IMG/VR virus record: IMGVR_UViG_3300025132_007963 | Coordinates: 1 to 64,000 of that record | DNA from: a virus | DNA: 64,000 bases | Reading direction: 5' to 3' (one strand) | Part shown: positions 1,515 through 19,108 of the stretch, piece by piece | How positions within the stretch are numbered: position 1 is the stretch's first letter | Layout of the letters: each line of letters opens with the position of its first letter | The notes under the pieces: generated by a model | Told to the model about the DNA's origin: nothing | The model's database searches: none | Seen by the model: the letters and a program-made list of their open reading frames with translations, nothing else | Made by a program: the position numbers and the translations under genes

Positions 1515-1700
1515 TCATGAGTAGTCGCCCTTTCTTAAGTTAGTGTCAAAGTCTTGGCGACCAACTAAGTCATTGGAATCACACCACTTTTGACGACCGT
1601 TGGCCCATTGCACAAGGATCTCGCGGCCTCCCCTTCTACGCTCCAGAATGATTCCGTTCTTCTCTTCTGCAAGTGTCGTGCTTTTACTAACTACGAACAT
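1515..1700 (-). CDS. small SH3-like protein, divergent KVGDLV family
   Basis: 61 residues. The core GIILERRRGG...VQWANGRQKWCDSNDLV matches the second half of the KVGDLV family described at 8528-8737: a GI(V/I) strand, a V.W strand, then W....(D/E)LV. The usual KVGDLV opening is missing. The ATG at 1698-1700 follows AGGGGT and sits four bases after the stop of the 1704-1895 gene, so the two are probably co-translated. Function unknown. Confidence 0.65.
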   Translation of the reverse strand: MFVVSKSTTLAEEKNGIILERRRGGREILVQWANGRQKWCDSNDLVGRQDFDTNLRKGDYS

Positions 1701-1703
1701 TTA

Positions 1704-1895
1704 TTAACCCCTTATGTCCATCAATTCTTGAGCGCTCAAAACAATGGTCCGCGCTGGTAACCTTTTTAAGTTTAGTTTCTTTCTGATAAGGTGTCGCGCT
1801 TGTGTGCTTGTCACCTTCTGACTAGTAGAGATAACACCCGACCACAAAAATGACGGGCTGTTATCGCTTCCTAGTCTATAGTAAAAATGATTCAA
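1704..1895 (-). CDS. hypothetical protein (63 aa), TTG start
   Basis: Start chosen at TTG 1893-1895, eight bases after a GAGGG box. Basic protein (MNHFYYRLGSDNSPSFLWSG at the start, then a Lys/Arg-rich middle with ARHLIRKKLNLKRL). First of a tight pair with 1515-1700. No family recognised. Confidence 0.6.
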   Translation of the reverse strand: MNHFYYRLGSDNSPSFLWSGVISTSQKVTSTQARHLIRKKLNLKRLPARTIVLSAQELMDIRG

Positions 1896-1913
1896 TTATA
1901 GTACCCTCACAAA

Positions 1914-2186
1914 TTACTTCCGCGCCAAGTCGGAATCATTGGTCGTGATAAACTCTTGAAGGGTTCCGGGCTCGATAAGCTCGGAAATGAGGCGCTCCCA
2001 CTGGTTGGCGTATAGGGTGAGAGGAAATCGGGAGTTTAGGCCGTAGACGCTCACGGCTCCCTTGTTTGAAACCTTAACCCGGAGCATCTTCTTCTGCTCG
2101 GCCTTGAGGCGCTTAAGCTCGTCTTGCATGCTCTCAAGCTCTGCGATACGGGCGGCTAGTTCTGTCTGTCGGTTCAATGCGCTCAT
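1914..2186 (-). CDS. coiled-coil hypothetical protein (90 aa)
   Basis: ATG 2184-2186 with GGAG eight bases upstream, directly downstream of the promoter at 2256-2284. Residues 5-37 form a short coiled coil (LAARIAELESMQDELKRLKA), followed by a beta-rich segment (VKVSNKGAVSVYGL). No family recognised. The coiled coil plus small domain suggests an oligomeric regulator or inhibitor, which is only inference. Confidence 0.75.
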   Translation of the reverse strand: MSALNRQTELAARIAELESMQDELKRLKAEQKKMLRVKVSNKGAVSVYGLNSRFPLTLYANQWERLISELIEPGTLQEFITTNDSDLARK

Positions 2187-2255
2187 GTGATGTACTCCAA
2201 AATTGAGCGTTTAAGTAGCGGGGGCGCCTTATTGCTTCCCTCACTTTCTTTATAC

Positions 2256-2284
2256 ATTATAGGGGAAAGTGTCCCCGATTGCAA
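2256..2284 (-). promoter_or_regulatory. sigma70-like promoter with upstream element
   Basis: On the minus strand TTGCAA (2279-2284) and TATAAT (2256-2261) are separated by 17 bases. Upstream, at 2311-2340, is a copy of the conserved element (CTTGAGATCATTAAGAAAG) shared by at least six more promoters. It drives the 1914-2186 gene. Confidence 0.8.
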
Positions 2285-2337
2285 GAAAAAAAAGCACAAA
2301 AAGTGAAAAATCGTACTTTCTTAATGATCTCAAGGAC

Positions 2338-2514
2338 TTAGAGCGTGTCATAATCCTCGAGGGCCGTCTCTCTGAGTAGTTCCGTTGATTCGTCATCATA
2401 ACAGGCAAACCCGCGACCTTCCAACCACTCTATAAGCTCATCGCGATTCATGCTCTCAATTCGTCCGCGCTCGGTATAGATGAATCGTCCGGTGTGTGTT
2501 TCTGCGTATGGCAT
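2338..2514 (-). CDS. hypothetical protein (58 aa)
   Basis: The start is taken at the ATG at 2512-2514, eight bases after GGGAG, rather than at the ATG five codons upstream, which overlaps that box. The protein has GRFIYTERGRIESMNRDELI, then an acidic C-terminus that carries its only Cys. 'MNRDELIEWLEGRGFACYDD' resembles short helix-turn segments in other phage proteins, but no family is recognised. Confidence 0.65.
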   Translation of the reverse strand: MPYAETHTGRFIYTERGRIESMNRDELIEWLEGRGFACYDDESTELLRETALEDYDTL

Positions 2515-2569
2515 TTGATGCGCTCCCATAAAATTATTAATTAATAGATTCTCGAATGATTACAAGGGT

Positions 2570-2842
2570 TTAGCCGTCAATGACGTCTGCGTGTTGCCTT
2601 GCGTAGCCTACATGTTTTGATGTGGTCATGGACTGGAAGCCATGGCGACCGCTGGCGCTATAGTCTCGTAATACCTTAACACCGCGTGCGGTTTTGGGGT
2701 CTTCTACGGTGTCACCGATTAACAGCGCGTAAGAGTACAAGCGCTGGCCGTCGGTCCAAAACTGGCCCCCGTGGTTGCTGGCGGCTTCATTGTGTCGCCA
2801 ATGCTCGGCAACGTTTCGGGTCTGGGTTTTCTTCAATCGCAT
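2570..2842 (-). CDS. hypothetical protein (90 aa)
   Basis: The frame is open for 55 more codons upstream, but that part lies over the promoter at 2876-2904 and translates to a hydrophobic string with no ribosome-binding site. ATG 2840-2842 with AGGA six bases upstream is the likely start. The protein (MRLKKTQTRNVAEHWRHNEA...) contains FWTDGQRLYSYALLIGDTVE and many His/Arg, like small phage proteins expressed early. Function unknown. Confidence 0.75.
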   Translation of the reverse strand: MRLKKTQTRNVAEHWRHNEAASNHGGQFWTDGQRLYSYALLIGDTVEDPKTARGVKVLRDYSASGRHGFQSMTTSKHVGYARQHADVIDG

Positions 2843-2875
2843 GGGGTGTCCTTTCGTTTCCTCGATTGTGTAAAC

Positions 2876-2904
2876 ATTATACGAAAACACCGGGGAAAAG
2901 TCAA
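2876..2904 (-). promoter_or_regulatory. strong sigma70-like promoter
   Basis: TTGACT (2899-2904), 17-base spacer, perfect TATAAT (2876-2881) on the minus strand. The conserved upstream element (CTTGAAATCATTAAC...ACG) lies at 2931-2960. It drives the 2570-2842 gene. Confidence 0.85.
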
Positions 2905-2957
2905 CAAAAAAAAGCAAAAAAAGTGAAAAAACGTAAAAAGTTAATGATTTCAAGGCG

Positions 2958-3191
2958 TTAGCCGTCAAAATCAACGTCGTGGATAGGGTTTCCCCATTGG
3001 CACACAAATTGATCGATTCGATCCTGGCTCAAAGCGTCGTGGTCATGGCGCCCTGCCTCGAAAAAAGGAATCAAGGACACGGGCACACCTAGAGATAGAG
3101 CGCTTCCAACTAGAGCGCCGGCACGGTGACACACACCAAGCTCCCATGCGTCGTCTTCATGCTCAACGTGAAATTTCATCCAATCGTTCAT
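2958..3191 (-). CDS. hypothetical protein (77 aa)
   Basis: ATG 3189-3191 with AAGGA upstream. Starts MNDWMKFHVEHEDDAWELGV; acidic, with a hydrophobic middle (GALVGSALSLGVPVSLIPFF). Transcribed from its own promoter at 3227-3255. No family recognised. Confidence 0.7.
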   Translation of the reverse strand: MNDWMKFHVEHEDDAWELGVCHRAGALVGSALSLGVPVSLIPFFEAGRHDHDALSQDRIDQFVCQWGNPIHDVDFDG

Positions 3192-3226
3192 GCTGTTTTA
3201 TCCTTTTCGTTCTTGGTTATGCATGC

Positions 3227-3255
3227 ATAATAGCATGCTTGGCCGTAGCCGTCAA
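3227..3255 (-). promoter_or_regulatory. sigma70-like promoter
   Basis: TTGACG (3250-3255), 17-base spacer, TATTAT (3227-3232) on the minus strand, just downstream of the terminator at 3275-3304. Confidence 0.8.
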
Positions 3256-3274
3256 GTACTTTTTAAAGAAAAAA

Positions 3275-3304
3275 GCAAAAAAAATTCGCGGCGAAAACCG
3301 CCGC
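3275..3304 (-). terminator. intrinsic terminator
   Basis: On the minus strand a perfect 6-bp GC stem (GCGGCG/CGCCGC, bases 3299-3304 with 3288-3293) with a 5-base loop is followed by GAA and eight T. It ends the operon that comes from the promoter at 3722-3750. Confidence 0.85.
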
Positions 3305-3403
3305 AATATCCGGAGGCTCCCAACTTCCCCCGGCTGAACATAGCCTTAACGCTTACGCAACCACAAGCGGATCCGCTTTCTGGCCTATGCTCCCCACTAG
3401 ATG

Positions 3404-3622
3404 TTAACCGTTCAATGCCTCGCGAGCATTCACACCGGTTAAAACGTGCTTTGCTCCATCATTCATAATGATATGAGAACAAACAAGGCCCGGTCTCCGC
3501 TGCTCAAGCCCAATGGCCTTGATGTGATGCGGTGCAATGCCATGTTCAATCTCGAATGCGATCTGTCTGCTCAATTGCTGGCTCAATTGCAACATCTCTT
3601 TTTTCTTCTCTTGGATTGTCAT
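3404..3622 (-). CDS. hypothetical protein (72 aa)
   Basis: Start at ATG 3620-3622 (MTIQEKKKEMLQLSQQLSRQ) with a GAGA box; a GTG four codons upstream is an alternative. The N-terminal half is a charged helix; the C-terminal half (GLVCSHIIMNDGAKHVLTGV) is predicted beta. No family recognised. About 100 bases of untranslated sequence follow before the terminator. Confidence 0.6.
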   Translation of the reverse strand: MTIQEKKKEMLQLSQQLSRQIAFEIEHGIAPHHIKAIGLEQRRPGLVCSHIIMNDGAKHVLTGVNAREALNG

Positions 3623-3695
3623 TTTTCTCTGCACTTTCTTTTTTTTCCGTGGATGTTTTTTTGTTCATCCGGATTATCGTTGCTAGGTCCCACAT
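3546..3695 (-). CDS. possible small protein (49 aa) overlapping the next gene
   Basis: The first ATG after the promoter at 3722-3750 that has a good Shine-Dalgarno box (AAGGA, eight bases) opens this frame: MWDLATIIRMNKKTSTEKKE..., a very charged peptide ending RIRD. Its last 77 bases overlap the 3404-3622 gene in another frame, so much of it could be shadow. It may serve as a leader that couples translation to that gene. Confidence 0.35.
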   Translation of the reverse strand: MWDLATIIRMNKKTSTEKKESAEKNDNPREEKRDVAIEPAIEQTDRIRD

Positions 3696-3721
3696 ATTTT
3701 TGTTTCCTTCATCGTGTATAT

Positions 3722-3750
3722 ACTATCGCACGATTTTTTGTTGGCGTCAA
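3722..3750 (-). promoter_or_regulatory. sigma70-like promoter
   Basis: TTGACG (3745-3750), 17-base spacer, weak -10 GATAGT (3722-3727) on the minus strand, preceded by long A/T tracts. Confidence 0.55.
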
Positions 3751-3781
3751 GAAAAAAAATGCTTTTTTTTAAAAAAAATGA

Positions 3782-3886
3782 TTAATCCAATAAATTCCTA
3801 GACTTAGCGATTTTATAAATCATAACAAGCTCGATAACCTTAAGCGCAATATATAGACTACTAAACACCAGAAAGAAAAACATCAT
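3782..3886 (-). CDS. tiny membrane protein (34 aa)
   Basis: Two ATGs in a row open MMFFFLVFSSLYIALKVIEL..., a single membrane helix with a basic C-terminal tail (YKIAKSRNLLD). Its start overlaps the stop of the 34-residue hydrophobic frame upstream (ATGA overlap), a sign of co-translation. It was too short for ordinary gene finding. Function unknown; a lysis or membrane-associated regulator is possible. Confidence 0.5.
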   Translation of the reverse strand: MMFFFLVFSSLYIALKVIELVMIYKIAKSRNLLD

Positions 3887-3987
3887 TTAAACAACCCCAC
3901 AATCTTATGACCAATACTCATGACACCCTCAACGCCGATGGCATCACCTAACAAAAAACAAAAAACACCTACAAACAAGTATTGCAT
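3883..3987 (-). CDS. tiny membrane protein (34 aa)
   Basis: ATG 3985-3987 after an AAGG box inside the last codons of the 3969-4205 gene. The peptide MQYLFVGVFCFLLGDAIGVE continues to GHKIVGLFK and holds one hydrophobic segment. It overlaps its neighbours at both ends. Function unknown. Confidence 0.5.
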   Translation of the reverse strand: MQYLFVGVFCFLLGDAIGVEGVMSIGHKIVGLFK

Positions 3988-4205
3988 TGCACCGCCTTCA
4001 TATTATCCTTATGCACTAAGATGCGCTCGCCATTAGTAGTTAGCACTTTGAATACCTCACCAAAATTAATCAACTTGTATCCAGACTGGCCACGTTTTGC
4101 TAAGCCAAGTACAAGCCCGTAACGCCCATGAAAAAAGATTCGCTCAGCTGGTTTAGCGCTGGACCAATCCCAGATCTGAATCATATCACCTTTTTTTACT
4201 TGCAC
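3969..4205 (-). CDS. KVGDLV-family SH3-like protein (78 aa)
   Basis: Starts at GTG 4203-4205 (MQVKKGDMIQIWDW). It has a GLVLGL strand and a C-terminal KVLTTNGERILVHKDNMKAV that matches the family pattern of strands ending in (D/E)-(L/N)-x-x-V. It overlaps the 4186-4404 gene by 20 bases; the overlap is the usual family junction with six extra A bases (two Lys codons) inserted. The Shine-Dalgarno (AAGGTG) lies in the upstream gene's codons. Confidence 0.8.
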   Translation of the reverse strand: MQVKKGDMIQIWDWSSAKPAERIFFHGRYGLVLGLAKRGQSGYKLINFGEVFKVLTTNGERILVHKDNMKAVQCNTCL

Positions 4206-4404
4206 TGAGCACCTTATCTACTGCAAATATCGAAACCTTGCGACCCTCTGCAGTCATCCATGAGCATGCTGGTTTGCAGTCATGACGGAAATGCACAACC
4301 AGATTACGCACCGTTGATTCGGGGTGACCTGGATGCATCATCTCACGTGCTAACACAATACCCTCATAGCCGCCGCGAACCTCTATTAAATCACCGACTT
4401 TCAT
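4186..4404 (-). CDS. KVGDLV-family SH3-like protein (72 aa)
   Basis: MKVGDLIEVRGGYEGIVLAR at the start, a longer insert in the middle (including RHDCKPACSW), then VSIFAVDKVLSASKKR. The ATG lies inside the 14-base junction shared with the upstream gene at 4391-4591; the family junction normally has GTG here. Function unknown; the fold is predicted to be a small beta barrel. Confidence 0.85.
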   Translation of the reverse strand: MKVGDLIEVRGGYEGIVLAREMMHPGHPESTVRNLVVHFRHDCKPACSWMTAEGRKVSIFAVDKVLSASKKR

Positions 4405-4591
4405 TGATCACCTCTAAGTCATAATTCCAGACATTATGCCCTATTGTACCATCTTGCCATGAAATGTCAAACACTTTATTACTAGATGTGACACCGCATA
4501 GTGGATCAAACACTTCTCGGAGAATCACACCAAGCCTCTCTTCAGCTTTGCGGTTTGGATAGATATCCTTAATCATATCACCGATTTTCAT
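4391..4591 (-). CDS. KVGDLV-family SH3-like protein (66 aa)
   Basis: MKIGDMIKDIYPNR..., then LGVILREVFD, a FDISWQDG strand, and the signature C-terminus WNYDLEVINESR. Its ATG (4589-4591, AGGGGA upstream) also overlaps the stop of the basic 42-residue gene at 4578-4706. Its own last codons carry the GAGG box and start codon of the next family member. Confidence 0.85.
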   Translation of the reverse strand: MKIGDMIKDIYPNRKAEERLGVILREVFDPLCGVTSSNKVFDISWQDGTIGHNVWNYDLEVINESR

Positions 4592-4706
4592 ATGTCCCCT
4601 TATGCTTTATTTTTCGAGTATACTTTTTTTTGTCACGATGAGCTTTAACGCCACCACCATGACGTAACACCAGCGCAACGGCATATGGATTTCTGATCTG
4701 TTTCAT
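4578..4706 (-). CDS. short basic phage protein (42 aa)
   Basis: MKQIRNPYAVALVLRHGGGV followed by KAHRDKKKYTRKIKHKG. Strongly basic, with an N-P-Y-A...GGG...H.DK..YTRK.KHK pattern that I recognise from short uncharacterised proteins of T4-like and marine phages. AGGAG lies upstream, and it is the first gene after the promoter at 4735-4763. Its stop overlaps the start of the 4391-4591 gene. It could bind nucleic acid; that is inference from charge alone. Confidence 0.7.
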   Translation of the reverse strand: MKQIRNPYAVALVLRHGGGVKAHRDKKKYTRKIKHKGTYENR

Positions 4707-5641: not shown

Positions 5642-5833
5642 TTATTTATTGTTGTAGAATTTTTCCCAGCTAGTCTCAAAAGTATAGTGCAATGCCGTCA
5701 TGATGACGACAAAGGTTGCAGTCATGACAAGAGATCTTTGTATCTCCCCTAGAAACATATATGTTATCCCTACGCCTACCGTCGTAGATAAAACACGCCA
5801 TGCTATAACCTTTCGCACTATATCTTTTTTCAT
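5642..5833 (-). CDS. DUF2061-like membrane protein (63 aa)
   Basis: MKKDIVRKVIAWRVLSTTVG, two membrane helices, then ALHYTFETSWEKFY. The pattern (K..aWR..sT.....).....(E/T)....Y..E..W is that of the small DUF2061 membrane family, of which a clearer member lies at 43660-43863. No function is known. It follows the membrane gene at 5837-6046 directly. Confidence 0.65.
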   Translation of the reverse strand: MKKDIVRKVIAWRVLSTTVGVGITYMFLGEIQRSLVMTATFVVIMTALHYTFETSWEKFYNNK

Positions 5834-6833: not shown

Positions 6834-7028
6834 TTATTTAAATTCAATAATTTTTGCCTCCGTATTAAACTCTCCCCTAACGAGGAAAATCTCCGGATCA
6901 CCATCTGTAAATCTAGCCTTGACCACATGATTAATGTGTTGTGGCTGATATGTATCTGGCGCAGTCATGGTTTTGAACTCTACGACAATTCCAACTCTGC
7001 TTCCATGCTTTACCGTTTTTCCTACCAT
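6834..7028 (-). CDS. small SH3-like protein, divergent KVGDLV family
   Basis: MVGKTVKHGSRVGIVVEFKT...HVVKARFTDGDPEIFLVRGE. GIVVEF and KARFTDG align with the GIV and V.W strands of the KVGDLV proteins, but the overlap junction at the C-terminus is absent (ends AKIIEFK). The ATG overlaps the stop of 7022-7357 and has AAAGGA upstream. Confidence 0.65.
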   Translation of the reverse strand: MVGKTVKHGSRVGIVVEFKTMTAPDTYQPQHINHVVKARFTDGDPEIFLVRGEFNTEAKIIEFK

Positions 7029-8047: not shown

Positions 8048-8236
8048 TCAATAATTTCGAGAGGTTACGAGTTCTAAACTAATTTTGTTGTGCCATAAAA
8101 CTGAACTATATCGAGTGTTCCACTTAACACAAACATCGTTATTATCGCATTTAATAATGAGACCAAAGAATTTTTTATGTACACGATCAGATATATACTT
8201 GCTTTCCCTATATCTTACAATATCACCGACTTTCAC
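8048..8236 (-). CDS. KVGDLV-family SH3-like protein (62 aa)
   Basis: GTG start at 8234-8236: MKVGDIVRYRESKYISDRVH, FFGLIIKCDNNDVCVKWNTR, ending LELVTSRNY. It overlaps the 8223-8378 gene by exactly 14 bases, and its Shine-Dalgarno (GAGG, six bases away) lies in that gene's codons. Last of a chain of four; its C-terminus runs into the conserved promoter element instead of another junction. Confidence 0.85.
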   Translation of the reverse strand: MKVGDIVRYRESKYISDRVHKKFFGLIIKCDNNDVCVKWNTRYSSVLWHNKISLELVTSRNY

Positions 8237-8378
8237 TGACTACCTCTGTATCATCCCTGTGAACTCGGTACTCTCCATCAGGGAAGAGAACATAAAACCC
8301 GAAAGGAATAATCCTAGTGATAATACCAAGGGTTAGCTGGGGTTGACTTACTTGTCTTACCAAATCACCGACGTTCAC
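8223..8378 (-). CDS. KVGDLV-family SH3-like protein (51 aa)
   Basis: Start set at GTG 8376-8378 (MNVGDLVRQVSQPQ) because GGAGG stands six bases before it inside the upstream gene. The longer frame upstream is shadow of that gene. LGIITRIIPFGFYVLFPDGE and the ending DDTEVVSESR follow the family pattern. 14-base overlaps at both ends. Confidence 0.85.
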   Translation of the reverse strand: MNVGDLVRQVSQPQLTLGIITRIIPFGFYVLFPDGEYRVHRDDTEVVSESR

Positions 8379-8541
8379 TGATAACCTCCAGTGAATCTGA
8401 ACAGTGGTTGAAATGTTCACCATTCATATCAAGCCAAGCAACTTGGCAATAGTCAATATCAACATACGTTCGGACCACAATGCCGATGGCGCGGTGCTCT
8501 TTTGGCATATCGTTGTGTGTTACCAAATCACCGACTTGCAC
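8365..8541 (-). CDS. KVGDLV-family SH3-like protein (58 aa)
   Basis: GTG 8539-8541, six bases after GGAGG: MQVGDLVTHNDMPKEHR, AIGIVVRTYVDIDYCQVAWL, ending SDSLEVISERR. The final codons hold the next ribosome-binding site and start. 14-base overlap with both neighbours. Confidence 0.85.
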   Translation of the reverse strand: MQVGDLVTHNDMPKEHRAIGIVVRTYVDIDYCQVAWLDMNGEHFNHCSDSLEVISERR

Positions 8542-8737
8542 TGATAACCTCCAGGTCATGATCCCATTCAGCTATGGTAGTACCAAGCCCATTCCACTTT
8601 ACATAGAGGACGTTACAATGATACTTACCATTGTCACCGGCTGGGCCGGTGACAATCCCTATCGTGCGGTGACGTAGATCGCCCATGGTTCGTTCGCCTA
8701 TCCACTTCACCAGACTGCCCATCTTTAGATGTTCCAT
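8528..8737 (-). CDS. KVGDLV-family SH3-like protein (69 aa), head of chain
   Basis: ATG 8735-8737 with AAGGAAG upstream; the only member of this four-gene chain with an independent start. Family layout: a charged lead-in, (K/V)(V/M)G(D/S)LV strand (MEHLKMGSLVKWIGE), a TIGIVTG strand, a VLYVKWNG strand, then WDHDLEVISASR. Predicted to be a 50-70 residue all-beta SH3/KOW-like barrel. No function is known. Such domains often bind nucleic acid or ribosomal partners, but no residue here proves it. About 21 related proteins occur in the first 19 kb. Confidence 0.85.
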   Translation of the reverse strand: MEHLKMGSLVKWIGERTMGDLRHRTIGIVTGPAGDNGKYHCNVLYVKWNGLGTTIAEWDHDLEVISASR

Positions 8738-10273: not shown

Positions 10274-10450
10274 TCAAGAACTTACAGGCTTCTCTATATT
10301 ATCACAAAGCTCACTTATTGAGATCCAGATTGATTTTCTAGTTCCAAGTATTCTAACTAAGCACTTATCTTTCTTAACCATAAGAACTTTGCCATGGCCA
10401 CCTAAGTTTGGTAACCAGATCATGTTATCATTTTTATGTTTTATCTCCAT
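10274..10450 (-). CDS. small protein (58 aa), divergent KVGDLV family
   Basis: MEIKHKNDNMIWLPNLGGHG, KVLMVKKDKCLVRILGTRKS, ending CDNIEKPVSS. The order of short beta strands fits the KVGDLV family loosely. It starts inside the end of the 10434-10748 gene (17-base overlap) and stops inside the conserved promoter element. Too short for most gene finders. Confidence 0.6.
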   Translation of the reverse strand: MEIKHKNDNMIWLPNLGGHGKVLMVKKDKCLVRILGTRKSIWISISELCDNIEKPVSS

Positions 10451-10748
10451 GCAGCCTTCTTACGTTCTTTAAAAAATCTTTTGCTTTCTTTGGTACGTGA
10501 CCGGGTTTAACTCTCTCTATTATATCTAAACTTGGTTCGCAAAACTCACCGTTATCAGGCAAATATATTAATGGCTTACCAAAACCAACATCTACCCTAA
10601 CAACAATGCCCAAATTACCTTTTGCTTCATAATCAAAGACATCATAGCTCTCTGTAAACTTAACCATCTCTCCACGTACTAAAAATTCTTCTTGTTTAAT
10701 AGCTAGGTTTGACACTTTCGATAGTTTCCTTTTTGTAAAAGTCTCCAT
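10434..10748 (-). CDS. KVGDLV-family protein with N-terminal extension (104 aa)
   Basis: METFTKRKLSKVSNLAIKQE precedes the family core: VRGEMVKFTESYDV, LGIVVRVDVGFGKPLIYLPD, then LDIIERVKPGHVPKK and a basic tail. The ATG (10746-10748) overlaps the 10703-10912 gene by 46 bases. An ATG in the core is an alternative start but its GGAGAG box is too close. Confidence 0.7.
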   Translation of the reverse strand: METFTKRKLSKVSNLAIKQEEFLVRGEMVKFTESYDVFDYEAKGNLGIVVRVDVGFGKPLIYLPDNGEFCEPSLDIIERVKPGHVPKKAKDFLKNVRRLHGDKT

Positions 10749-10912
10749 CTTCTACCATTCCACCAATTGATTTGCCCTATCTTATTTAAGACCAAGACAT
10801 CTCCCAAATGAGGATTAACTCTTAATACAACACCGTGGTCTAAAAGCTCCTCATCGAAAGTAGAATTTTGTATCAGATAACAGACAACTAAATCACCTTT
10901 CTCTATATGCAC
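10703..10912 (-). CDS. KVGDLV-family SH3-like protein (69 aa)
   Basis: GTG 10910-10912: MHIEKGDLVVCYLIQN, HGVVLRVNPHLGDVLVLNKI, WWNGRRWRLLQKGN. Family pattern without the usual LEVISESR end. Ribosome-binding site weak; the gene follows the VWA gene by 21 bases. Confidence 0.7.
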   Translation of the reverse strand: MHIEKGDLVVCYLIQNSTFDEELLDHGVVLRVNPHLGDVLVLNKIGQINWWNGRRWRLLQKGNYRKCQT

Positions 10913-10933: not shown

Positions 10934-12121
10934 CTACTCAATAGCAATGATTCTCTCGTTGGTCGAGAAGTACGGACGGCTAGCATGTTCTGGTGTAGTC
11001 ATCCACATACGCTGACACTTACTAGCCTTTGGTTTTGGAGCGTACAGATCTGTTAGCACAATGTGGCCATCGAATTCGCGATCATTCACATAATCAGTCG
11101 GTGGATTAAAATCAGTACCACCACACATAACACGCTCCCAGCTGCGTCTTTCGCCCTTCTTCCAAGTGTAAACGAGACTTTCATCCACCTTGGTATCAAA
11201 AGGGATGACTGTGAATTCTGCCAGAGCTGAGAGCTTGTTTAGCTCAGCAAAAAACTTAGCTAGCATAACATCATCAACAGACCCAGACTGATCAATACTA
11301 ATTGCAACCTTAGCAACTCGATTAATCTTACGGCCAGGATGTACATATGCATAACGTCGATTAATTCTCTTGATTGAAGATGTCTTGTTGGACCTCTGAG
11401 ACGTCTTGATAAAGTAACGCAATACTTTTTTCCAGTCTACCTTTGTCTGTAGACTATCCATAATTTTACGTTTACACTCTGATGTAACACTGCCCCAGTT
11501 TCTATTCTTTGATGCTGTCTCGGCAGCAGACTTAACAATTTCCTTAAGTCGTTCCTTCGCTATCTCCTTTACCTGTGCATCAGTCTCACCCCAACCTGAG
11601 TGATCATCCAGTGGCTCCATACCGCTAGTAGGCTCTGAGCTATCATCCGGGTCACCATCACCAGAACCACCACTACTCTCAAAGTCTTCTGGCAGGTTTT
11701 CCATATACCATTCAGCAGACATGCCGGATGGTAAATCTTCAAATGGAGTGCCTTCTTTGCCTGGAATCAGGCCACCTTCTGGTAAATTGTTAAGGTGACT
11801 ATTGATTGCAAGATCTGTAGCGATATTCCATCGCTTAGTCATCTTGCCTTCTGGCATTCTCTCAGTCACATGCATGAAGATAATGTGGTAAAACTCATGC
11901 TTCAAAACATCTAGTCTCTCAAGGTCATTAAGACCGCCGAAGAACTCTGGATTATAGAACATCTCAAACTGAGCTGTATCAGGATTGACCCTAACACCGG
12001 CAGTAGGGATGCTCAATGAGACACGCTTATCGATACGACGCGAGATAGCTGCAAAGAAAGGCTCTTCCATTAAGAGCCTAGCGGTATGCATATTGAGATT
12101 GAAATCAGTATTAGCCTTCAT
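10934..12121 (-). CDS. VWA-like protein with metallopeptidase-type N-terminus
   Basis: 395 residues from ATG 12119-12121. An N-terminal domain has HEFYHIIFMH (HExxH zinc-peptidase motif, about residues 78-87) and WNIATDLAINSHL, as in the putative metallopeptidase domain of the DUF2201 family. A Ser/Asp/Gly-rich linker follows, then a VWA-like domain with VAISIDQSGSVDD (DxSGS metal site) and a CGGTDF motif. Such proteins pair with MoxR-type AAA ATPases, and the ATPase gene indeed overlaps the start by 11 bases. Known of the families: MoxR-VWA pairs remodel or insert metals into partner proteins. The phage substrate is unknown. Confidence 0.85.
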   Translation of the reverse strand: MKANTDFNLNMHTARLLMEEPFFAAISRRIDKRVSLSIPTAGVRVNPDTAQFEMFYNPEFFGGLNDLERLDVLKHEFYHIIFMHVTERMPEGKMTKRWNIATDLAINSHLNNLPEGGLIPGKEGTPFEDLPSGMSAEWYMENLPEDFESSGGSGDGDPDDSSEPTSGMEPLDDHSGWGETDAQVKEIAKERLKEIVKSAAETASKNRNWGSVTSECKRKIMDSLQTKVDWKKVLRYFIKTSQRSNKTSSIKRINRRYAYVHPGRKINRVAKVAISIDQSGSVDDVMLAKFFAELNKLSALAEFTVIPFDTKVDESLVYTWKKGERRSWERVMCGGTDFNPPTDYVNDREFDGHIVLTDLYAPKPKASKCQRMWMTTPEHASRPYFSTNERIIAIE

Positions 12122-13160
12122 TCTTTTCACCACCAAGAATTTCTACCAAAAAGTCTACAATACCTTCTGCGCCGTGCAGCTTGATTGTGTTCTTCATTTC
12201 ACCATTGCCAAGAACAGTCCACAGCTTCATTGCAACCTCAGATGGTAAAGAGGTAAAGTACTTTGCCAGGTTATCAATCTGCTCTTCAGGAAGTTCTTCC
12301 TGAAAAGAATCTGCAGCATCAAACTTCTCAATCAAAGCAGTGTGATCATTGATACCAAATGATTGAACTTTTGAAAAGTCACCCTTGATCAAGATATCCT
12401 CTGGCGTAACTTGCCTATCATAATTGGCAATAAAATCATTGAAGGCAACTGCAGCCTCTAAACCAACGAATGCAGCTGACAAATTAAACAACGTAGGGCT
12501 AGCCTCTTGCAATAGATCTGCGGACTGCAGACACGTGTTTAGGCGCTCCCATGACCGTCGAGAAGGGTAAACCTTGTTTGGTTCAAAGTCTTCATTGTGC
12601 TCAAGATGAGAACGATTATTGTTGATAAAATCCCACACTTCCTTACCAACATTATCCTTAGCCCATGACAACCAATCCTCGACCGATGGCTCAATATCAA
12701 ATACAGTCCAGCGATCAAGCTCGGCGGGATCCATCTCACCGACTTGATATTGCTCGCCATGTTCACCACCATTGACAGCAGCAAAGATTTGAGTGTCAGG
12801 ATGCAATACATGGCCATTGAGCTTGCGGCTATCTGTTAGCTCAAAGATACCCTGGCGAACCTCTAGCGTTGCACGGTCAATCTCATCAAGAAATAGAATG
12901 ACGGGGTTATCGCATGCATGCTTAAACCAATCTGGTGGGTTAAAGCGAGTGCTATTGCCCTCGATAACAGGAAGGCCAACCAAGTCACCCTCAGTCATCT
13001 GGGAAGCACGGCGCTCAATAACAGTCATGTTAACTATATCAGCGTACTGATACACAACCGTAGACTTACCGATACCGTGGCGCCCACGAAGCAAAACTGG
13101 TTTGCGGACATCAGTCACGAAACCGACAATATTTGTAAACGTCTTGAAGTCAACTGCCAT
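12111..13160 (-). CDS. MoxR-family AAA+ ATPase
   Basis: 349 residues. Walker A GRHGIGKST (about residues 26-34), Walker B VILFLDEIDRA, sensor segment FAAVNGG and an arginine-bearing ELDRW. The front 200 residues are the MoxR/CbbQ-type ATPase; the rest is a helical lid. AAGGAG precedes the ATG, and the promoter at 13212-13240 lies just upstream. It forms a two-gene operon with the VWA/HExxH protein, so it probably acts as a chaperone for one specific target. Confidence 0.9.
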   Translation of the reverse strand: MAVDFKTFTNIVGFVTDVRKPVLLRGRHGIGKSTVVYQYADIVNMTVIERRASQMTEGDLVGLPVIEGNSTRFNPPDWFKHACDNPVILFLDEIDRATLEVRQGIFELTDSRKLNGHVLHPDTQIFAAVNGGEHGEQYQVGEMDPAELDRWTVFDIEPSVEDWLSWAKDNVGKEVWDFINNNRSHLEHNEDFEPNKVYPSRRSWERLNTCLQSADLLQEASPTLFNLSAAFVGLEAAVAFNDFIANYDRQVTPEDILIKGDFSKVQSFGINDHTALIEKFDAADSFQEELPEEQIDNLAKYFTSLPSEVAMKLWTVLGNGEMKNTIKLHGAEGIVDFLVEILGGEKNEG

Positions 13161-14350: not shown

Positions 14351-14411
14351 TTAACATTTGGCCTACCCATAAGCCAACTGCAATCGTAATCACACTACCT
14401 AAAAACTCCAT
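14319..14411 (-). CDS. tiny membrane protein (30 aa)
   Basis: ATG 14409-14411 preceded by AAAGGAGAT and overlapping the stop of the 14411-14635 gene (TAATG). MEFLGSVITIAVGLWVGQML then IDWWKSNGRY: one membrane helix ending in aromatic and basic residues. Function unknown. Confidence 0.6.
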   Translation of the reverse strand: MEFLGSVITIAVGLWVGQMLIDWWKSNGRY

Positions 14412-14635
14412 TATTTATCTCCTTTGCTCACCATTTTTAGCCACTTTGCCCTAACCACCGAAGGTGTATTATTTTTATTAAACAATACCACACATGAGTA
14501 CTCATCCTTGTGCAAGTTTCTATCTGGAGGTTGATCTACATAGGGATTTACTTCTAAAATAACCGCCAACTCTCCGCAGTTAGGGCTCATTCTATACACG
14601 CATTCTGCTAGGTCACCCTTGCTAAATTCAGTCAT
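14411..14635 (-). CDS. KVGDLV-family SH3-like protein (74 aa)
   Basis: ATG 14633-14635 (MTEFSKGDLAECVYRMSPNC) overlaps the stop of the upstream gene. Core ELAVILEVNPYV and SCVVLFNKNN, ending AKWLKMVSKGDK. A TTG nine codons upstream lacks a ribosome-binding site and is rejected. Confidence 0.75.
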   Translation of the reverse strand: MTEFSKGDLAECVYRMSPNCGELAVILEVNPYVDQPPDRNLHKDEYSCVVLFNKNNTPSVVRAKWLKMVSKGDK

Positions 14636-14963
14636 CTTCTTGCTGCTGCCTTTGTCGCTCAAAGTACTTCTTCTTAGAAAAGAATTTTAAATCTGATCTT
14701 AGAAAGTATTTATCCCACCTACGACGACCGGGAGGACCGTTTTTCTCTCCCTCTGGACCAAGCCATTTAACAACATATCCAGTTCGCTTGTGATCCTTGT
14801 AGTAATGGCCATCGCTATAGTACACATCTTTCACTCTTGTTATCATGCCCACCATGTTATCTACATCATGACCACAATGAAACCATATAAAGTTTCTTTT
14901 AAATGCAACACTGGACAAGGTTACTAAATCTCCAGCTTTCATCTCTTTCTTTTTTCTTGCCAT
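14628..14963 (-). CDS. KVGDLV-family protein, long form (111 aa)
   Basis: MARKKKEMKAGDLVTLSSVA begins the family fold; MVGMITRVKDVYY and GYVVKWLGPEGEKN follow, then RRRWDKYFLRSDLKF and a Gln/Lys-rich basic tail. Longer loops than other members. Strong positive charge (first six residues and tail) hints at nucleic-acid contact; inference. Confidence 0.75.
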   Translation of the reverse strand: MARKKKEMKAGDLVTLSSVAFKRNFIWFHCGHDVDNMVGMITRVKDVYYSDGHYYKDHKRTGYVVKWLGPEGEKNGPPGRRRWDKYFLRSDLKFFSKKKYFERQRQQQEDD

Positions 14964-14964
14964 T

Positions 14965-15669
14965 TTATTTTATCTTCTTTGCTCTTTTAAGGTCTCGCTC
15001 CTCTGCGTAAATAGGCTTTGGATATCCGACTGGTAATATTTTGTATGTCCTGCAGCCTTTTGCACACGTTATCGGCATTTTTGCATTGTCCTCAATAACA
15101 ATCGCATATTGCTCTCTCATGCTGTTTTTAAAGTAAGTATTATTTAGTTTAACTAAACTCATCAATCGATTGATTCTAATCTGTACTTTATCTCCTTTCT
15201 TGAAACGTGGCTCCCTCGTTAGTTCATCAATGATACGTTCTGAATACTTATTCTCACACAGGCTTTGGTATTCCTCGCACGTTAGGTTTTCGTCTGCGTC
15301 AACCTTTGTTCTGGTATTTTTGAAATAAGCACCGTGATCAATCTTAGAGTAAAACTCTGATGCAATCTTAGCGTTTTTCTTTCTCTCTTCACTGTAATCC
15401 CAACTTAAATTGGCATGGTAGCTATTTTGTGAATACTTCTTATTCATTGATAAAAGGTATTGTGACTGAGAGTGTGTGAGAGATTTTACTTTCCCGTATG
15501 CTTGCATGCTTTTAAGAATTTTCATAATATCATCGTGGCTCTTGTTATAGAAAGGGCATGGCAATGATGCACCCATCCATGTTTTAACCTTTTTTATGAC
15601 ATACTCTATTTTATCATCGCTAGACGAGTGATAAAAATATCTTTCATTCTCAAATAACTCAGAACTCAT
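14965..15669 (-). CDS. fusion: helical domain plus KVGDLV-like domain (234 aa)
   Basis: ATG 15667-15669 overlaps the end of the 15666-15875 gene. Residues 1-155 are a charged helical domain without a recognised family. From about 160 (PRFKKGDKVQIRINR) the protein shows the KVGDLV fold: YAIVIEDNAKMP, YKILPVGYPKPIYAEERDLK. It is the only member seen with a large extra domain, so the small domain may be a targeting module. Confidence 0.75.
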   Translation of the reverse strand: MSSELFENERYFYHSSSDDKIEYVIKKVKTWMGASLPCPFYNKSHDDIMKILKSMQAYGKVKSLTHSQSQYLLSMNKKYSQNSYHANLSWDYSEERKKNAKIASEFYSKIDHGAYFKNTRTKVDADENLTCEEYQSLCENKYSERIIDELTREPRFKKGDKVQIRINRLMSLVKLNNTYFKNSMREQYAIVIEDNAKMPITCAKGCRTYKILPVGYPKPIYAEERDLKRAKKIK

Positions 15670-15875
15670 TGACAATCACCTTCACTTACTACTTCAAACT
15701 CACGTGGACTGTGTAGTTCGGGCTTGCGACCTGGATAGACCACTTTTATTAACCTTCCTGTACCTAAAATGCCGCCTGAACATGCATTTGTGCTTAAACA
15801 AATTGCTACGGCCCTTTTCTGCTGGTGTAGCTGCAGCATACCCCATCGTTTTACAACCAAGTCACCGACTTTCAC
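15666..15875 (-). CDS. KVGDLV-family SH3-like protein (69 aa)
   Basis: GTG 15873-15875, six bases after GGAGG in the upstream gene: MKVGDLVVKRWGMLQLHQQK, AVAICLSTNACSGG, LIKVVYPGRK, ending EFEVVSEGDCQ. 14-base overlap with 15862-16062. The frame upstream of the GTG is shadow of that gene. Confidence 0.85.
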   Translation of the reverse strand: MKVGDLVVKRWGMLQLHQQKRAVAICLSTNACSGGILGTGRLIKVVYPGRKPELHSPREFEVVSEGDCQ

Positions 15876-16062
15876 TGATAACCTCCAAGTTTTCTCTAAG
15901 GGACCAAAATGTTCCATACTCGCCATAGTTTACCTTATATGTTTCTAGGCTTGGCTCATCTTCAGGGGCACATGCTACAACGATACCAATGATACCATCA
16001 ACATATGCAACGTTGTAGCGGTTCTTTTTCTTAACAAGAGTTCCAACTTTTATGCTTTTCAT
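15862..16062 (-). CDS. KVGDLV-family SH3-like protein (66 aa)
   Basis: MKSIKVGTLVKKKNRYNV, GIIGIVVACAPEDE, YKVNYGEYGTFW, ending RENLEVISESR. The last codons encode GGAGG and the next GTG. Its ATG follows the stop of 16063-16248 directly (TAAATG). Confidence 0.85.
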   Translation of the reverse strand: MKSIKVGTLVKKKNRYNVAYVDGIIGIVVACAPEDEPSLETYKVNYGEYGTFWSLRENLEVISESR

Positions 16063-16248
16063 TTAGGAGTTCATTTTCTTTAGTGCTGATACAACCATTG
16101 ATACTGGTTTGGATGCATCAGTGAACAATACTTGACATAATTGATCGGTGTCCTCAAAACATTTAGGTCCAATATTGTATAATAGACCAGGCTTATTACC
16201 ATAAACAACGAGGTCACCAACTTTAATATTTTCCATTTGTTTATCCAT
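16063..16248 (-). CDS. KVGDLV-family SH3-like protein (61 aa)
   Basis: MDKQMENIKVGDLVVYGNKP, YNIGPKCFEDTD, LCQVLFTDASKPVSMV. ATG 16246-16248 is preferred over a GTG eight codons upstream because a GAGG box lies between them, though 12 bases from the ATG. No LEVISESR end; the next gene follows at TAAATG. Confidence 0.7.
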   Translation of the reverse strand: MDKQMENIKVGDLVVYGNKPGLLYNIGPKCFEDTDQLCQVLFTDASKPVSMVVSALKKMNS

Positions 16249-16520: not shown

Positions 16521-16561
16521 AAAAAACTCCTTTCTTTATGTTTCCTCGATGTGACTTATAT

Positions 16562-16590
16562 ATAATACAAAATCTCATGATCAAAATCAA
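16562..16590 (-). promoter_or_regulatory. sigma70-like promoter with upstream element
   Basis: TTGATT (16585-16590), 17-base spacer, TATTAT (16562-16567) on the minus strand; the conserved element (CTTGAAATTATTAAACTTTT) lies at about 16607-16632. Confidence 0.85.
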
Positions 16591-16624
16591 GAAAAAAATA
16601 AAAAATCGTAAAAGTTTAATAATT

Positions 16625-16810
16625 TCAAGGGTTTACAACTTCTGAAATAACAGACCACATAGTTTCCGTCAGTTCGCATGCGGAGCCCAAAGATAAGTCA
16701 TACCTCTGATCTCCTAAGACCAAAGTAATATCATTATCGCTCTCGTATATTTGTACAAGAATCATATCTCCGGATGTAGTTGTTATATATAGCTCTTCAG
16801 TTTCTTTCAT
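16625..16810 (-). CDS. small beta-rich protein (61 aa)
   Basis: ATG 16808-16810 with a GGAGAT box: MKETEELYITTTSGDMILVQ, DNDITLVLGDQRYDL, then MWSVISEVVNP. Acidic, alternating strands; a remote KVGDLV-like barrel is possible but the signatures are missing. Function unknown. Confidence 0.65.
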   Translation of the reverse strand: MKETEELYITTTSGDMILVQIYESDNDITLVLGDQRYDLSLGSACELTETMWSVISEVVNP

Positions 16811-16811
16811 C

Positions 16812-16997
16812 TTATCTCCTACAGTGTTCGTAAAGTATCTTATAAACCCTTGCATTTTCTTTTTCTAAAAGAGATGCATATTTATGCAATAATTTAACTT
16901 CATGAAGTATTGCACCCCTCTCTACCTTTTGACCCGCAGCAAAGCCGCAAACAAATATGACAACACTCAATATTATAATTGTAAGTTTATCTCTCAT
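16812..16997 (-). CDS. small membrane-anchored protein (61 aa)
   Basis: MRDKLTIIILSVVIFVCGFA forms an N-terminal membrane anchor; the remaining 40 residues are a charged helix (HEVKLLHKYASLLEKENARV). This type-II layout recalls inner-membrane spanins, but it is far shorter and no outer-membrane partner is seen. The start lies just downstream of the tRNA-Leu gene. Confidence 0.6.
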   Translation of the reverse strand: MRDKLTIIILSVVIFVCGFAAGQKVERGAILHEVKLLHKYASLLEKENARVYKILYEHCRR

Positions 16998-17007
16998 AAA
17001 TTTTTAG

Positions 17008-17090
17008 TAGGGATAGAGGGAATCGAACCCACAAGACCTATGGTCGGGAGATTTTAAGTCTCCTGCGTTTACCTATTTCGCCATATCCCC
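17008..17090 (-). tRNA. tRNA-Leu (TAA)
   Basis: Type II tRNA on the minus strand: acceptor GGGGATA with TATCCCT, anticodon loop CTTAAAA with anticodon TAA, a long variable arm (CGACCATAGGTCTTG) and T-arm GTGGGTTCGATTCCC. 83 bases, no encoded CCA. It serves TTA leucine codons. Its 5' 22 bases are also the end of the thymidine kinase frame. Confidence 0.93.
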
Positions 17091-17626
17091 ACAATTTTAT
17101 TGTAGTGCTCATAACAAAGTGGTTCATATTCTTCACTACCACCAACTTCAATCTGCCTCTGACTCTCTGACTTTCTTCTCGTATAGAACGCATCGGCCCC
17201 ACACTCACAGCAAACAGCAGGGCAAATCTCAATTTGCGTTGCATAAGGCAACAAATCTCTTATCTCTGGCAAGGGCTTTGGCTCAGAGGACAACTGCAAA
17301 CTAGAAACTAAAATTGTTTTTCCAGAAGCAAATAGCTTAAGCAAGGCCTTGGCAGCATATTCGATCATAAATACCTCATCAACTGCAATTACATCTGCAT
17401 CGCCGGCGTACTCTAAGATGTCTAAACCATTGTGAACAAGAGTGCAATCGTGGGTTTGTCCAGAATGAGTGACGACAGTTTTAGAGGAGTATCTATTATC
17501 AATTTTAGGCTTAAATAATTTTACTTTTTTATTTTGATACTTGTATCTTTCTAATGCCGCTAATAATTTTGTAGTTTTTCCACCAAACATTGGGCCAGTG
17601 AAGATTTTAAGCTCTGAGTTTTTCAA
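17069..17626 (-). CDS. tdk: thymidine kinase (TK1 type)
   Basis: 185 residues. Phosphorylates thymidine to dTMP with ATP. P-loop GPMFGGKTT (about 11-19), DEVFMI (Walker B), a lasso with the zinc ligands CPAVCCECGADAFYTRR and YEPLCYEHY. TTG start at 17624-17626 overlaps the stop of the 48-residue gene upstream. The last codons (GIWRNR) and the stop lie inside the tRNA-Leu gene, so the natural C-terminus seems to have been replaced or trimmed. It adds to the dTMP supply from ThyX and dUTPase. Confidence 0.92.
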   Translation of the reverse strand: MKNSELKIFTGPMFGGKTTKLLAALERYKYQNKKVKLFKPKIDNRYSSKTVVTHSGQTHDCTLVHNGLDILEYAGDADVIAVDEVFMIEYAAKALLKLFASGKTILVSSLQLSSEPKPLPEIRDLLPYATQIEICPAVCCECGADAFYTRRKSESQRQIEVGGSEEYEPLCYEHYNKIVGIWRNR

Positions 17627-17769
17627 TTTTTGTTCTTTTCAATTCCGTTAGTTTCTTTAATTATTGCATCAACAAGGTGTTTTGTCAACTTTTTTCTATC
17701 CTCCTCTATCAAAAAGGGGGCATAATTTTTCAAAACTCTTTCTACTGTAAATTTTAATTTTAATCTCAA
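17623..17769 (-). CDS. small basic protein (48 aa), TTG start
   Basis: TTG 17767-17769 preceded by GGAGGAG. MRLKLKFTVERVLKNYAPFL, IEEDRKKLTKHLVDAIIKET: a basic two-helix peptide. It ends in a two-base overlap with the TTG of thymidine kinase and is probably co-translated. Function unknown. Confidence 0.6.
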   Translation of the reverse strand: MRLKLKFTVERVLKNYAPFLIEEDRKKLTKHLVDAIIKETNGIEKNKN

Positions 17770-17784
17770 ATTAAACTCCTCCAA

Positions 17785-18249
17785 TCATGGTAATTTTGTC
17801 TTTTTTCCTTTTGGTTTTATCTTAAAATTTGGCTTATAAGAAGTCTTTTTTTGGGGCGTGCTAAAATTAAAAGAAAATAAACCATTATTCATATAATAAT
17901 CATCATCGTAGAAATCCCCGTCGTCATCAAAAATTGTTTTTTCTTCGCCAATAAAAGAATAATATTCGTCATGTATCTCTATCAATGATATTGCTTCAGA
18001 GAGCATATAGCTGGGGTCGCCAGATTGATAAACTCTTAATTTATATCCATCAGTGAATGTAAGTGTAGGATCTGAATTTTTAAATTTATCATCCATCACA
18101 AACTCCATGGCTGTTTTTGTTTTTTGTATTGTTCGCGCTCCTGATCTTCTTTTTTCTATGTCATAGAATTTAAATTTGCCATCTTCATCACACTCTTTAA
18201 AGATTCTCTCTCCCTCTGAAATAAAAGAGATTTTTTGAATTGTTTTCAT
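17785..18249 (-). CDS. hypothetical protein (154 aa)
   Basis: MKTIQKISFISEGERIFKEC... beta-rich first two thirds, an Asp/Tyr-rich acidic stretch (DDDGDFYDDDYYMNNG, about 108-123) and a basic tail (FKIKPKGKKTKLP). The opposite charges suggest a flexible scaffold or interaction tail. No family recognised. Confidence 0.75.
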   Translation of the reverse strand: MKTIQKISFISEGERIFKECDEDGKFKFYDIEKRRSGARTIQKTKTAMEFVMDDKFKNSDPTLTFTDGYKLRVYQSGDPSYMLSEAISLIEIHDEYYSFIGEEKTIFDDDGDFYDDDYYMNNGLFSFNFSTPQKKTSYKPNFKIKPKGKKTKLP

Positions 18250-18276
18250 TGCAAGCTCTCCAAAAATTATGTTGTT

Positions 18277-18495
18277 TCAACTAAATTTAACTATCTCTCT
18301 CTCAGAAACCCACCAATGATCATCTAGCGATTGAAAATAAACTTGATGAGTAAGTCCAGATGGCCATGGATTTTTATCAACTTTTACCAATAAACCTATT
18401 GAACCCTCTTCTAAATAGACAATTGGACTAAATGCAGTTGTAACATTTGTACTAGCGATTGATTGACAAACCTTTACCAAGTCTCCAATCTTCAA
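18277..18495 (-). CDS. KVGDLV-family SH3-like protein (72 aa)
   Basis: MKIGDLVKVCQSIASTNVTT, GSIGLLVKVDKNPW, HQVYFQSLDDHWWVSEREIV. Clear family pattern; overlaps the 18492-18680 gene by 4 bases (ATGA-type) rather than 14. Confidence 0.85.
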   Translation of the reverse strand: MKIGDLVKVCQSIASTNVTTAFSPIVYLEEGSIGLLVKVDKNPWPSGLTHQVYFQSLDDHWWVSEREIVKFS

Positions 18496-18680
18496 TTTAG
18501 TTTCACCAAATCCTTAAACTCTACTTTCTTTACATCGCTAGTATTATTAAATTTAAGAAACCATCGGACGGATGCTCTTCCCACTAGCGTGTGAATTTTT
18601 GTAATTATACCAATCATTTGATTGTGCGGTATATCCACATGCACCACAAGGTCTCCCAACTTAAAATTATCCTCTAACAT
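18492..18680 (-). CDS. KVGDLV-family SH3-like protein (62 aa)
   Basis: MLEDNFKLGDLVVHVDIPHN, MIGIITKIHTLVG, ASVRWFLKFN, then VEFKDLVKLN. It lies between the tRNA-Arg gene and 18277-18495. Function unknown. Confidence 0.85.
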   Translation of the reverse strand: MLEDNFKLGDLVVHVDIPHNQMIGIITKIHTLVGRASVRWFLKFNNTSDVKKVEFKDLVKLN

Positions 18681-18687
18681 TTAAAAG

Positions 18688-18761
18688 CGCCCTCGGCACG
18701 ATTCGAACGTGCGACCTGCGGTTTAGAAGACCGATGCTCTATCCAGCTGAGCTACGAGGGC
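18688..18761 (-). tRNA. tRNA-Arg (TCT)
   Basis: Minus-strand cloverleaf: acceptor GCCCTCG with CGAGGGC, D-arm GCTC...GAGC, anticodon loop CTTCTAA with anticodon TCT, T-arm GCACGTTCGAATCGTGC. 74 bases, no encoded CCA. It reads AGA, the arginine codon favoured by this genome. Confidence 0.95.
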
Positions 18762-18814
18762 TTATTTTTAAATTATGGCACAAACCTTATAAAAATGCAA
18801 GAGAATACTTAGGT

Positions 18815-19108
18815 TTAAACTAACAATATTCTCCTAACCCATCGGTGATATATCCAGCCGCGAGTATCTGAAACTCTGTCTCTCGGTATCCATTTTTTCT
18901 CAAAAAACTTTTCGTATCTGGTTCCTGGTATCATATGCACTAAGATTTTTCTGTCCTCTATTAGAACGTCCAAATCATTGTCTATCTTTAGTACTATGCC
19001 CATCCATTCTTTACCGTATAGCACGTGATTAATAAGCTCACCTATTTTCAGTAGGGACGTCTCCTTTGCCCAGGGATAAGTTACTTTTTTGCTTTTGTAT
19101 ATCTCCAT
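18815..19108 (-). CDS. KVGDLV-like protein (97 aa)
   Basis: ATG 19106-19108 with GGAG seven bases upstream. After a 20-residue lead, LLKIGELINHVLYG starts the family fold; WMGIVLKIDNDLDVLIEDRK follows, then a longer basic C-terminus (GTRYEKFFEKKWIPRDRVSD). The most distal recognisable member of the family in this window. Confidence 0.75.
   Translation of the reverse strand: MEIYKSKKVTYPWAKETSLLKIGELINHVLYGKEWMGIVLKIDNDLDVLIEDRKILVHMIPGTRYEKFFEKKWIPRDRVSDTRGWIYHRWVRRILLV

Follow-up and report, generated by a model that had tools for sequence, protein, structure and literature searches.

The DNA analysed here, referred to as the window, is the 64,000-nt stretch that forms the first third of the 192.8-kb IMG/VR virus record IMGVR_UViG_3300025132_007963. 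Between 1.5 and 19.1 kb, its minus strand carries about 20 small open reading frames (ORFs) of one family of SH3-like mini-proteins. In five pairs of neighbours, the C-terminal motif LEVISESR of one protein and the N-terminal motif (K/Q/N)VGDLV of the next are the same DNA read in two frames. We propose that the genes of this array are interchangeable cassettes whose dual-coding ends serve as sites of homologous recombination, a reading to which we give a probability of roughly three in four. The comparisons directly support the junction between cassettes, its dual coding and its conservation at the nucleotide level, the breakpoints at the junction, near-identical cassettes shared by diverged phages, and purifying selection on the encoded proteins.

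A dual-coding junction links neighbouring genes

Neighbouring genes at a junction overlap by exactly 14 nt, and the full 33-nt junction, with the consensus (C/T)TGGAGGTNATCARTGAAAGTCGGTGAYYTNGT, encodes the tail of the upstream protein, a Shine-Dalgarno sequence, and the start codon and N terminus of the downstream protein. GGAGG lies 11 bases upstream of the start, within the Leu-Glu-Val codons, and each protein tail therefore holds the ribosome-binding site of the next gene. At junction 1 (TTGGAGGTTATCAGTGAAAGTCGGTGACTTGGT, positions 15856–15888, minus strand like all array features given below), the gene at 15862–16062 ends in LEVISESR and the gene at 15666–15875 begins with a GTG start followed by KVGDLV. 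Junction 2 (8522–8554; LEVISASR and QVGDLV), junction 3 (8359–8391; LEVISERR and NVGDLV), and junction 4 (8217–8249; TEVVSESR and KVGDIV) likewise have GTG starts; junction 5 (4385–4417; LEVINESR and KVGDLI) has an ATG start, which pairs with N replacing S in the upstream protein. These changes are the ones that the overlap dictates: residue 2 of the downstream protein (K/Q/N) covaries with the upstream tail (ESR/ASR/ERR), and the start codon (GTG/ATG) covaries with the upstream S/N. The number of junctions expected in the window from shuffled sequence is 0, compared with the five observed. A further, junction-like 14-nt overlap at 4572–4604 joins the end of a non-SH3 protein (...KHKGTYENR) to an ATG start followed by KIGDMI; it contains AAGGGG and is without GGAGG.

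The initial annotation had assigned these proteins a common layout, from the (K/Q/N)VGDLV start to the LEVISESR end. That layout is real, but it is not purely a protein feature, since a DNA junction that codes in two frames makes up the ends. The SESR tail might instead be functional in itself, for example as a binding or degradation tag, and its strong conservation, with R at the end in 88%, would fit such a role. However, where the next gene overlaps, 94% of members have the tail [SN]xx[RG], compared with only 23% of members without a downstream family member, and its residues follow from the start of the next gene; a function of the tail in its own right is scarcely credible on these figures. 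The Gly codon of the junction is GGT in 453 of 453 overlapped junctions and is fixed because GGC removes the upstream stop. This change is visible in a decayed junction in L045 (about 3150–3198 of the minus strand), where GGC replaces GGT, the upstream stop is gone, and the upstream protein reads on.

The junction is conserved as DNA

An overlap of exactly 14 nt with the next gene occurs in 481 of the 989 members collected, the runner-up being an overlap of 4 nt (35 cases); the share that uses the junction is inflated because the loci were fetched by means of it, which does not explain the sharpness of the 14-nt peak. Around the start codon, only positions −12 to +19 hold sequence information, and the columns beyond them are near zero. 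At a Val/Arg site that is synonymous in both frames, GTC/CGG outnumbers GTA/AGG by 285:55, compared with about 1:1 at interior Val codons. Ile is encoded by ATC in 164 of 237 junction cases (vs 33%) and Glu by GAG in 313 of 325 (vs 46%). As the search pattern had fixed some bases, these codon counts were recomputed with one search-hook junction per locus removed. Conservation at the DNA level could be caused by recombinational homogenisation, by selection on translation, or by both.

Selection on translation would be the central element if the overlap, the internal Shine-Dalgarno sequence, and a hairpin at the start codon formed a translation-coupling device that balances expression along the chain, with shuffling as a by-product. 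The preference for GAG preserves the Shine-Dalgarno sequence, GGAGG stands at −11, and the preferred wobble bases stabilise the junction RNA by about 0.75 kcal/mol relative to background codons, all of which agree with such a device. The only hairpin, however, is a weak one of 7 pairs around the start codon; the stem is tiny, the individual window junctions are unremarkable, and its paired positions do not covary (p = 0.69), which speaks against the hairpin as an RNA element. Coupling alone also leaves the breakpoints described below unexplained, and as the primary account of the junction we consider it rather unlikely. It is compatible with the exchange of cassettes and may be the reason that the sequence was first fixed.

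Cassettes change neighbours at the edges of the junction

Comparison of homologous cassettes across loci, at 60–97% core nucleotide identity, found the same neighbour in 23 cases and a different neighbour in 266. Control genes from the same loci (at least 100 aa, 70–90% identity) gave 86 and 77 comparisons, respectively; the region is therefore variable, and the cassettes much more variable still. Where the following gene differs (28 independent cases), identity drops at +20 from about 0.9 to about 0.27; where the preceding gene differs (27 independent cases), it is equally low at −13 and rises at −12. These two breakpoints coincide with the junction's edges. Gene content has thus been exchanged with breakpoints in a short shared sequence, the pattern of boundary-sequence shuffling.

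Individual cassettes illustrate the exchange. The genomes G003 and G015, whose terminases are 71% identical in nucleotide sequence, have in common one cassette of 96.7% identity with different genes on both sides, and several pairs of loci have a cassette of at least 90% identity in common with less than 10% of the longer locus alignable. The window cassette at 8223–8378 has a 92% core-nucleotide homologue in L129 and an 86% homologue in L112, the latter with both neighbours different. The homologues of the cassettes at 8048–8236 and 15666–15875, which lie 7.4 kb apart in the window, adjoin directly in L045. In L045, the copy of the latter begins outside a junction (MKKGDLVVKRW) and finishes in one, whereas the window gene has a junction start and a non-junction end; the ends of a cassette follow its neighbours.

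Genes of other kinds also carry junction ends. In the near-identical records L038 and L062, a gene for a DUF2061 membrane protein (Pfam E 9.5e-8) lies within the chain with a junction at both ends; a junction-free DUF2061 gene is present in the window at 5642–5833 (minus strand). In the 42-aa basic non-SH3 gene at 4578–4706 (RNPYAVAL...KKKYTRK), the 14-nt overlap with the next barrel gene sets the C terminus, and the L085 homologue of this gene is without the junction and has a different C-terminal end. Two other kinds of protein, of 152 aa and 73 aa, abut junctions in L059 and L052. Because such non-SH3 cases are few, the capture of unrelated genes occurs but is rare.

These observations bear on whether the array could have grown by plain tandem duplication and divergence, through unequal crossing-over in one lineage, with the junction kept since both frames code for needed ends. 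Dual coding does constrain the junction bases, and within-locus pairs at 63–86% core nucleotide identity exist; yet only 9 same-locus pairs exceed 60% amino acid identity, and local duplication is therefore a minor source of members. Duplication also sits poorly with near-identical cassettes beside unrelated neighbours in diverged phages, with the conservation of a site that is synonymous in both frames, with the loss of the motif from tails that have no downstream member, and with the DUF2061 gene bounded by junctions. We regard it as improbable.

Several points weigh against the exchange of cassettes at junctions. The evidence is all comparative and comes from assembled metagenomic contigs, recombination not having been observed directly. 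Assembler error at repeats could contribute, but we consider it minor, given the short length of 33 nt and the agreement among many different junctions. Within the window, the junction is used at only 5 borders (6 with the non-SH3 overlap) of the approximately 20 members. The gathering of loci by the junction overestimates the share of the family that uses it, and a correction for this was made for the codon counts only. Finally, conservation of the junction could reflect selection for translation, as the preferred bases strengthen the start-codon hairpin.

A proposed mechanism without a site-specific recombinase

In the mechanism that we propose, each cassette is one small gene, usually for an SH3/Tudor/KOW-like barrel of about 60 aa, and its first approximately 20 nt and last approximately 27 nt belong to the common 33-nt junction. 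Cassettes can then be joined in any order without loss of frame, stop, ribosome-binding site, or start, and single genes appear to be inserted, lost, or swapped between uncultured phages without damage. Swapping would probably proceed by short homologous recombination or annealing at junctions through a phage RecA/UvsX-type system, for which the RecA-family recombinase encoded at 48204–49325 (minus strand; PF00154, E 1.8e-35) is a candidate engine. The overlap and internal Shine-Dalgarno sequence would couple translation along the chain. The barrels may be accessory protein-binding factors that act on the host during infection, and the array would then resemble a quickly re-stocked tool rack.

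Integron cassettes are single genes in one-direction arrays that are swapped between genomes at boundary recombination sites, and the array resembles them in its single-gene, co-directional cassettes with boundaries as exchange sites. A recombinase that recognises the junction and acts by site-specific recombination would accordingly suit cassettes of one orientation with a common boundary. The array differs from integrons, however, in that its boundary is protein-coding and without an attC-like long palindrome and each cassette brings its own ribosome-binding link, and no integrase was found. Pfam tyrosine- and serine-recombinase domains number zero in the 192.8-kb record, which is possibly incomplete; the tyrosine recombinase family PF00589 was absent from this record in a search whose controls were positive in 14 of 14 genomes. 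That neither a tyrosine nor a serine recombinase could be detected argues against an integron-like mechanism, which we judge to be very improbable.

Distribution of the junction among phages

With a degenerate pattern, the junction was found in at least 119 stretches of IMG/VR viral contigs, and a looser pattern added further contigs. Fifteen records of 159–293 kb hold 4–25 junction-form starts each, nearly all on one strand, and the reversed-pattern control in the same records gave zero. At 55% identity, the small barrels of the sample fall into 645 clusters. Neither an array nor a junction was found at this sensitivity in 50,697 records of cultured phages, and a search of cultured phages with one family member returned zero protein relatives. 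Salmonella and Escherichia phages gave 19-nt matches that cover half of the query, with E-values of 0.4–4. Literature text searches for the motifs or for a description of such arrays returned nothing relevant.

The junction is also present on three contigs of metagenome-assembled genomes, which were treated as phage DNA because their bins also hold a terminase of this phage lineage. In G040 (contig 1, about 2.142–2.148 Mb, of the WOR-3 bacterium bin77 ‘chromosome’), a cassette array lies close to a 67%-identical terminase; this array is an integrated or mis-assembled phage.

Fold, selection, and function of the barrels

The AlphaFold2 model of the protein encoded at 8365–8541, built from an alignment of 111 relatives, is a small closed barrel of five strands (residues 6–9, 19–26, 31–36, 43–47, and 51–55; pLDDT 94, pTM 0.78), the architecture of SH3/Tudor/KOW-like barrels of about 60 aa. 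Its nearest folds in the PDB are Tudor domains and Spt5 KOW domains, including the PHF1 Tudor domain (4hcz) and archaeal Spt5 KOW domains (3p8b, 4zn3), with TM scores of 0.75–0.84 and E-values that are all weak; no PDB match in Foldseek has an E-value below 0.001. A profile search agrees with the barrel fold (NusG, uL24c, Rv2302). The model of the divergent member at 18280–18495 has four strands and a pLDDT of 68. The initial annotation's view of the mini-proteins as one SH3-like family that is expanded and divergent, rather than a set of recent duplicates, is upheld.

Scans of Pfam and PHROGs yielded no informative family for ten window members, and scans of the 111 relatives against Pfam, PHROG, and NCBIfam gave scattered weak matches in single members only. 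DUF4926, DUF2158, and Phage_tudor resemble the barrels in fold and in a weak sequence trace, the Pfam matches being scattered over single members. For a link to the ribosome, also raised in the initial annotation, there is no evidence beyond the KOW/uL24-like resemblance of the fold. The best viral structure matches, in BFVD (A0A516M7xx, A0A516MBxx), include many with near-consecutive accessions, which suggests that they come from one deposited genome, or from a few, in which similar barrels occur in multiple copies.

Pooled dN/dS in cassette interiors is 0.18 across 90 cross-locus pairs, which indicates that the proteins are real and that each type is maintained. Given this purifying selection on orthologous cassettes, turnover is mainly by whole-cassette swaps and not by fast point diversification. 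Net charge is scattered around zero, from about −13 to above +10, a range that rules out a uniform charge or DNA mimicry. Within a constant frame, the loops that connect the strands are about 3 to 31 residues long, and such variable loops would fit a binding scaffold with many targets.

The variable loops could also serve an anti-defence arms race in which each barrel blocks a different host target. SH3/Tudor barrels are generic binding domains, and the array stands in a variable region with tRNA genes, both in favour of such a role; however, a dN/dS of 0.18 points to stable individual functions, the charges around zero leave no common nucleic-acid mimic, and no informative family match supports it. 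We consider this role possible, if on balance doubtful.

Members of the array and genome setting

With a hidden Markov model (HMM) of the wider family, 17 window ORFs were matched at E < 0.01, 12 of them at E < 1e-4, and 3–4 weak members were added; about nine of the 17 were in the training set. The best match in a reversed-ORF control had E = 0.28, and outside 1.5–19.1 kb no ORF in the 192.8-kb record reached E < 1. The count given initially, of at least 17 clear and about four divergent copies, was right, and the clusters listed with it are all present. The program-made ORF list has overlong starts at 8223–8423, 8365–8559, and 15666–15926; the corrected starts are GTG at 8378, 8541, and 15875, each within the preceding gene.

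From low to high coordinates, the members begin with a divergent one without a KVGDLV start (1515–1700, E 3.5e-4), followed by three SH3-like mini-proteins (3969–4205, E 0.0025; 4186–4404, E 1e-5; 4391–4591, E 9e-12) and a weak member (6834–7028, E 0.06). The 8-kb chain, whose first gene lies at 8528–8737, continues with the cassettes at 8365–8541, 8223–8378, and 8048–8236, all four recognised by the family HMM. Three divergent ORFs occupy 10274–10912, of which 10703–10912 (E 0.004) was matched, 10434–10748 (E 0.17) is a weak member, and 10274–10450 was undetected. Two SH3-like ORFs at 14411–14942 (14411–14635, E 9e-4; 14628–14942, E 2e-7) precede a longer ORF of 235 aa with a weak SH3-like C terminus (14965–15675, E 1.1), possibly a cassette fused to another domain. 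The cassette at 15666–15875 (E 5e-8) and the mini-protein at 15862–16062 (E 4e-12) are followed by one at 16063–16236 (E 1e-5), for which an internal ATG start is preferred. Two SH3-like ORFs at 18277–18680, recognised by the family HMM, have an ordinary 4-nt overlap, and a divergent member lies at 18815–19108 (E 0.007).

Three tRNA genes, a UV endonuclease, and a thymidine kinase are mixed among the mini-genes. An AAA ATPase (AAA_5) beside a DUF2201 metallopeptidase/VWA protein forms a two-gene unit within the variable region (10934–13160, minus strand). The terminase is a T4-type large terminase, as in T4-like tailed phages; its nearest cultured relatives, annotated terminases of Flavobacterium and Microcystis phages, are about 44% identical to it, and matches also occur in Synechococcus, Escherichia, and many other phages. 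Also encoded in the genome are GroEL and a DNA polymerase III alpha subunit of the bacterial type.

Relation to known systems and implications

Promoter early stem-loops (PeSLs) of T4-like phages, the subject of work by Arbiol et al. 2010 and Comeau et al. 2014, are reportedly intergenic elements that combine a promoter and a terminator. Like the junction, they are short repeated sequences at gene borders tied to shuffling. Unlike them, the junction lies inside genes, codes in two frames, contains a Shine-Dalgarno sequence and start, and links a paralogous family; with its border within coding sequence and no long stem, it does not have the intergenic early promoter and stem-loop terminator of a PeSL. 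A paper that cites this work credits PeSLs with gene shuffling between related phages (PMC4503421).

In lambdoid phages and at gene 68 of the mycobacteriophages Island3 and Brujita, homologous recombination occurs at short conserved sequences near gene ends, and in Island3 two adjacent genes have closely related 18-residue C termini (PMC3029335). Those boundary sequences are isolated cases, whereas the junction is a standard repeated across dozens of genomes. Cluster K mycobacteriophages have start-associated sequences (SAS), which are 13 bp long and precede starts; 17-bp inverted repeats accompany about half of them (PMC3203893). They resemble the junction as short conserved sequences at the start of many small genes, but they serve different protein families and involve no stop/start overlap, whereas the junction is an overlap within mostly one family. 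A GGGATAGGAGCCC-like SAS element before the start codons was not found, and the junction consensus is unrelated to it. To our knowledge, PeSLs, boundary sequences, and SAS include no case of a border formed by a coding overlap in which one gene ends and the next is primed and started. The wider proposal, that uncultured T4-like phages possess an integrase-free cassette system in which a dual-coding overlap is the recombination site and genes, including refitted unrelated folds, are traded one by one, is in our view about as likely as not.

How phages quickly change small accessory genes unharmed is an old question, and boundary sequences have so far been found only sporadically. A standard junction that occurs many times per genome makes breakpoints, exchange rates, and barriers measurable from sequence. 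In families of this kind, motifs conserved at the N and C termini can be misleading, as both are possibly the same stretch of DNA read in two frames. The arrays themselves are a library of hundreds of small binding-type barrels for host-interaction screens.

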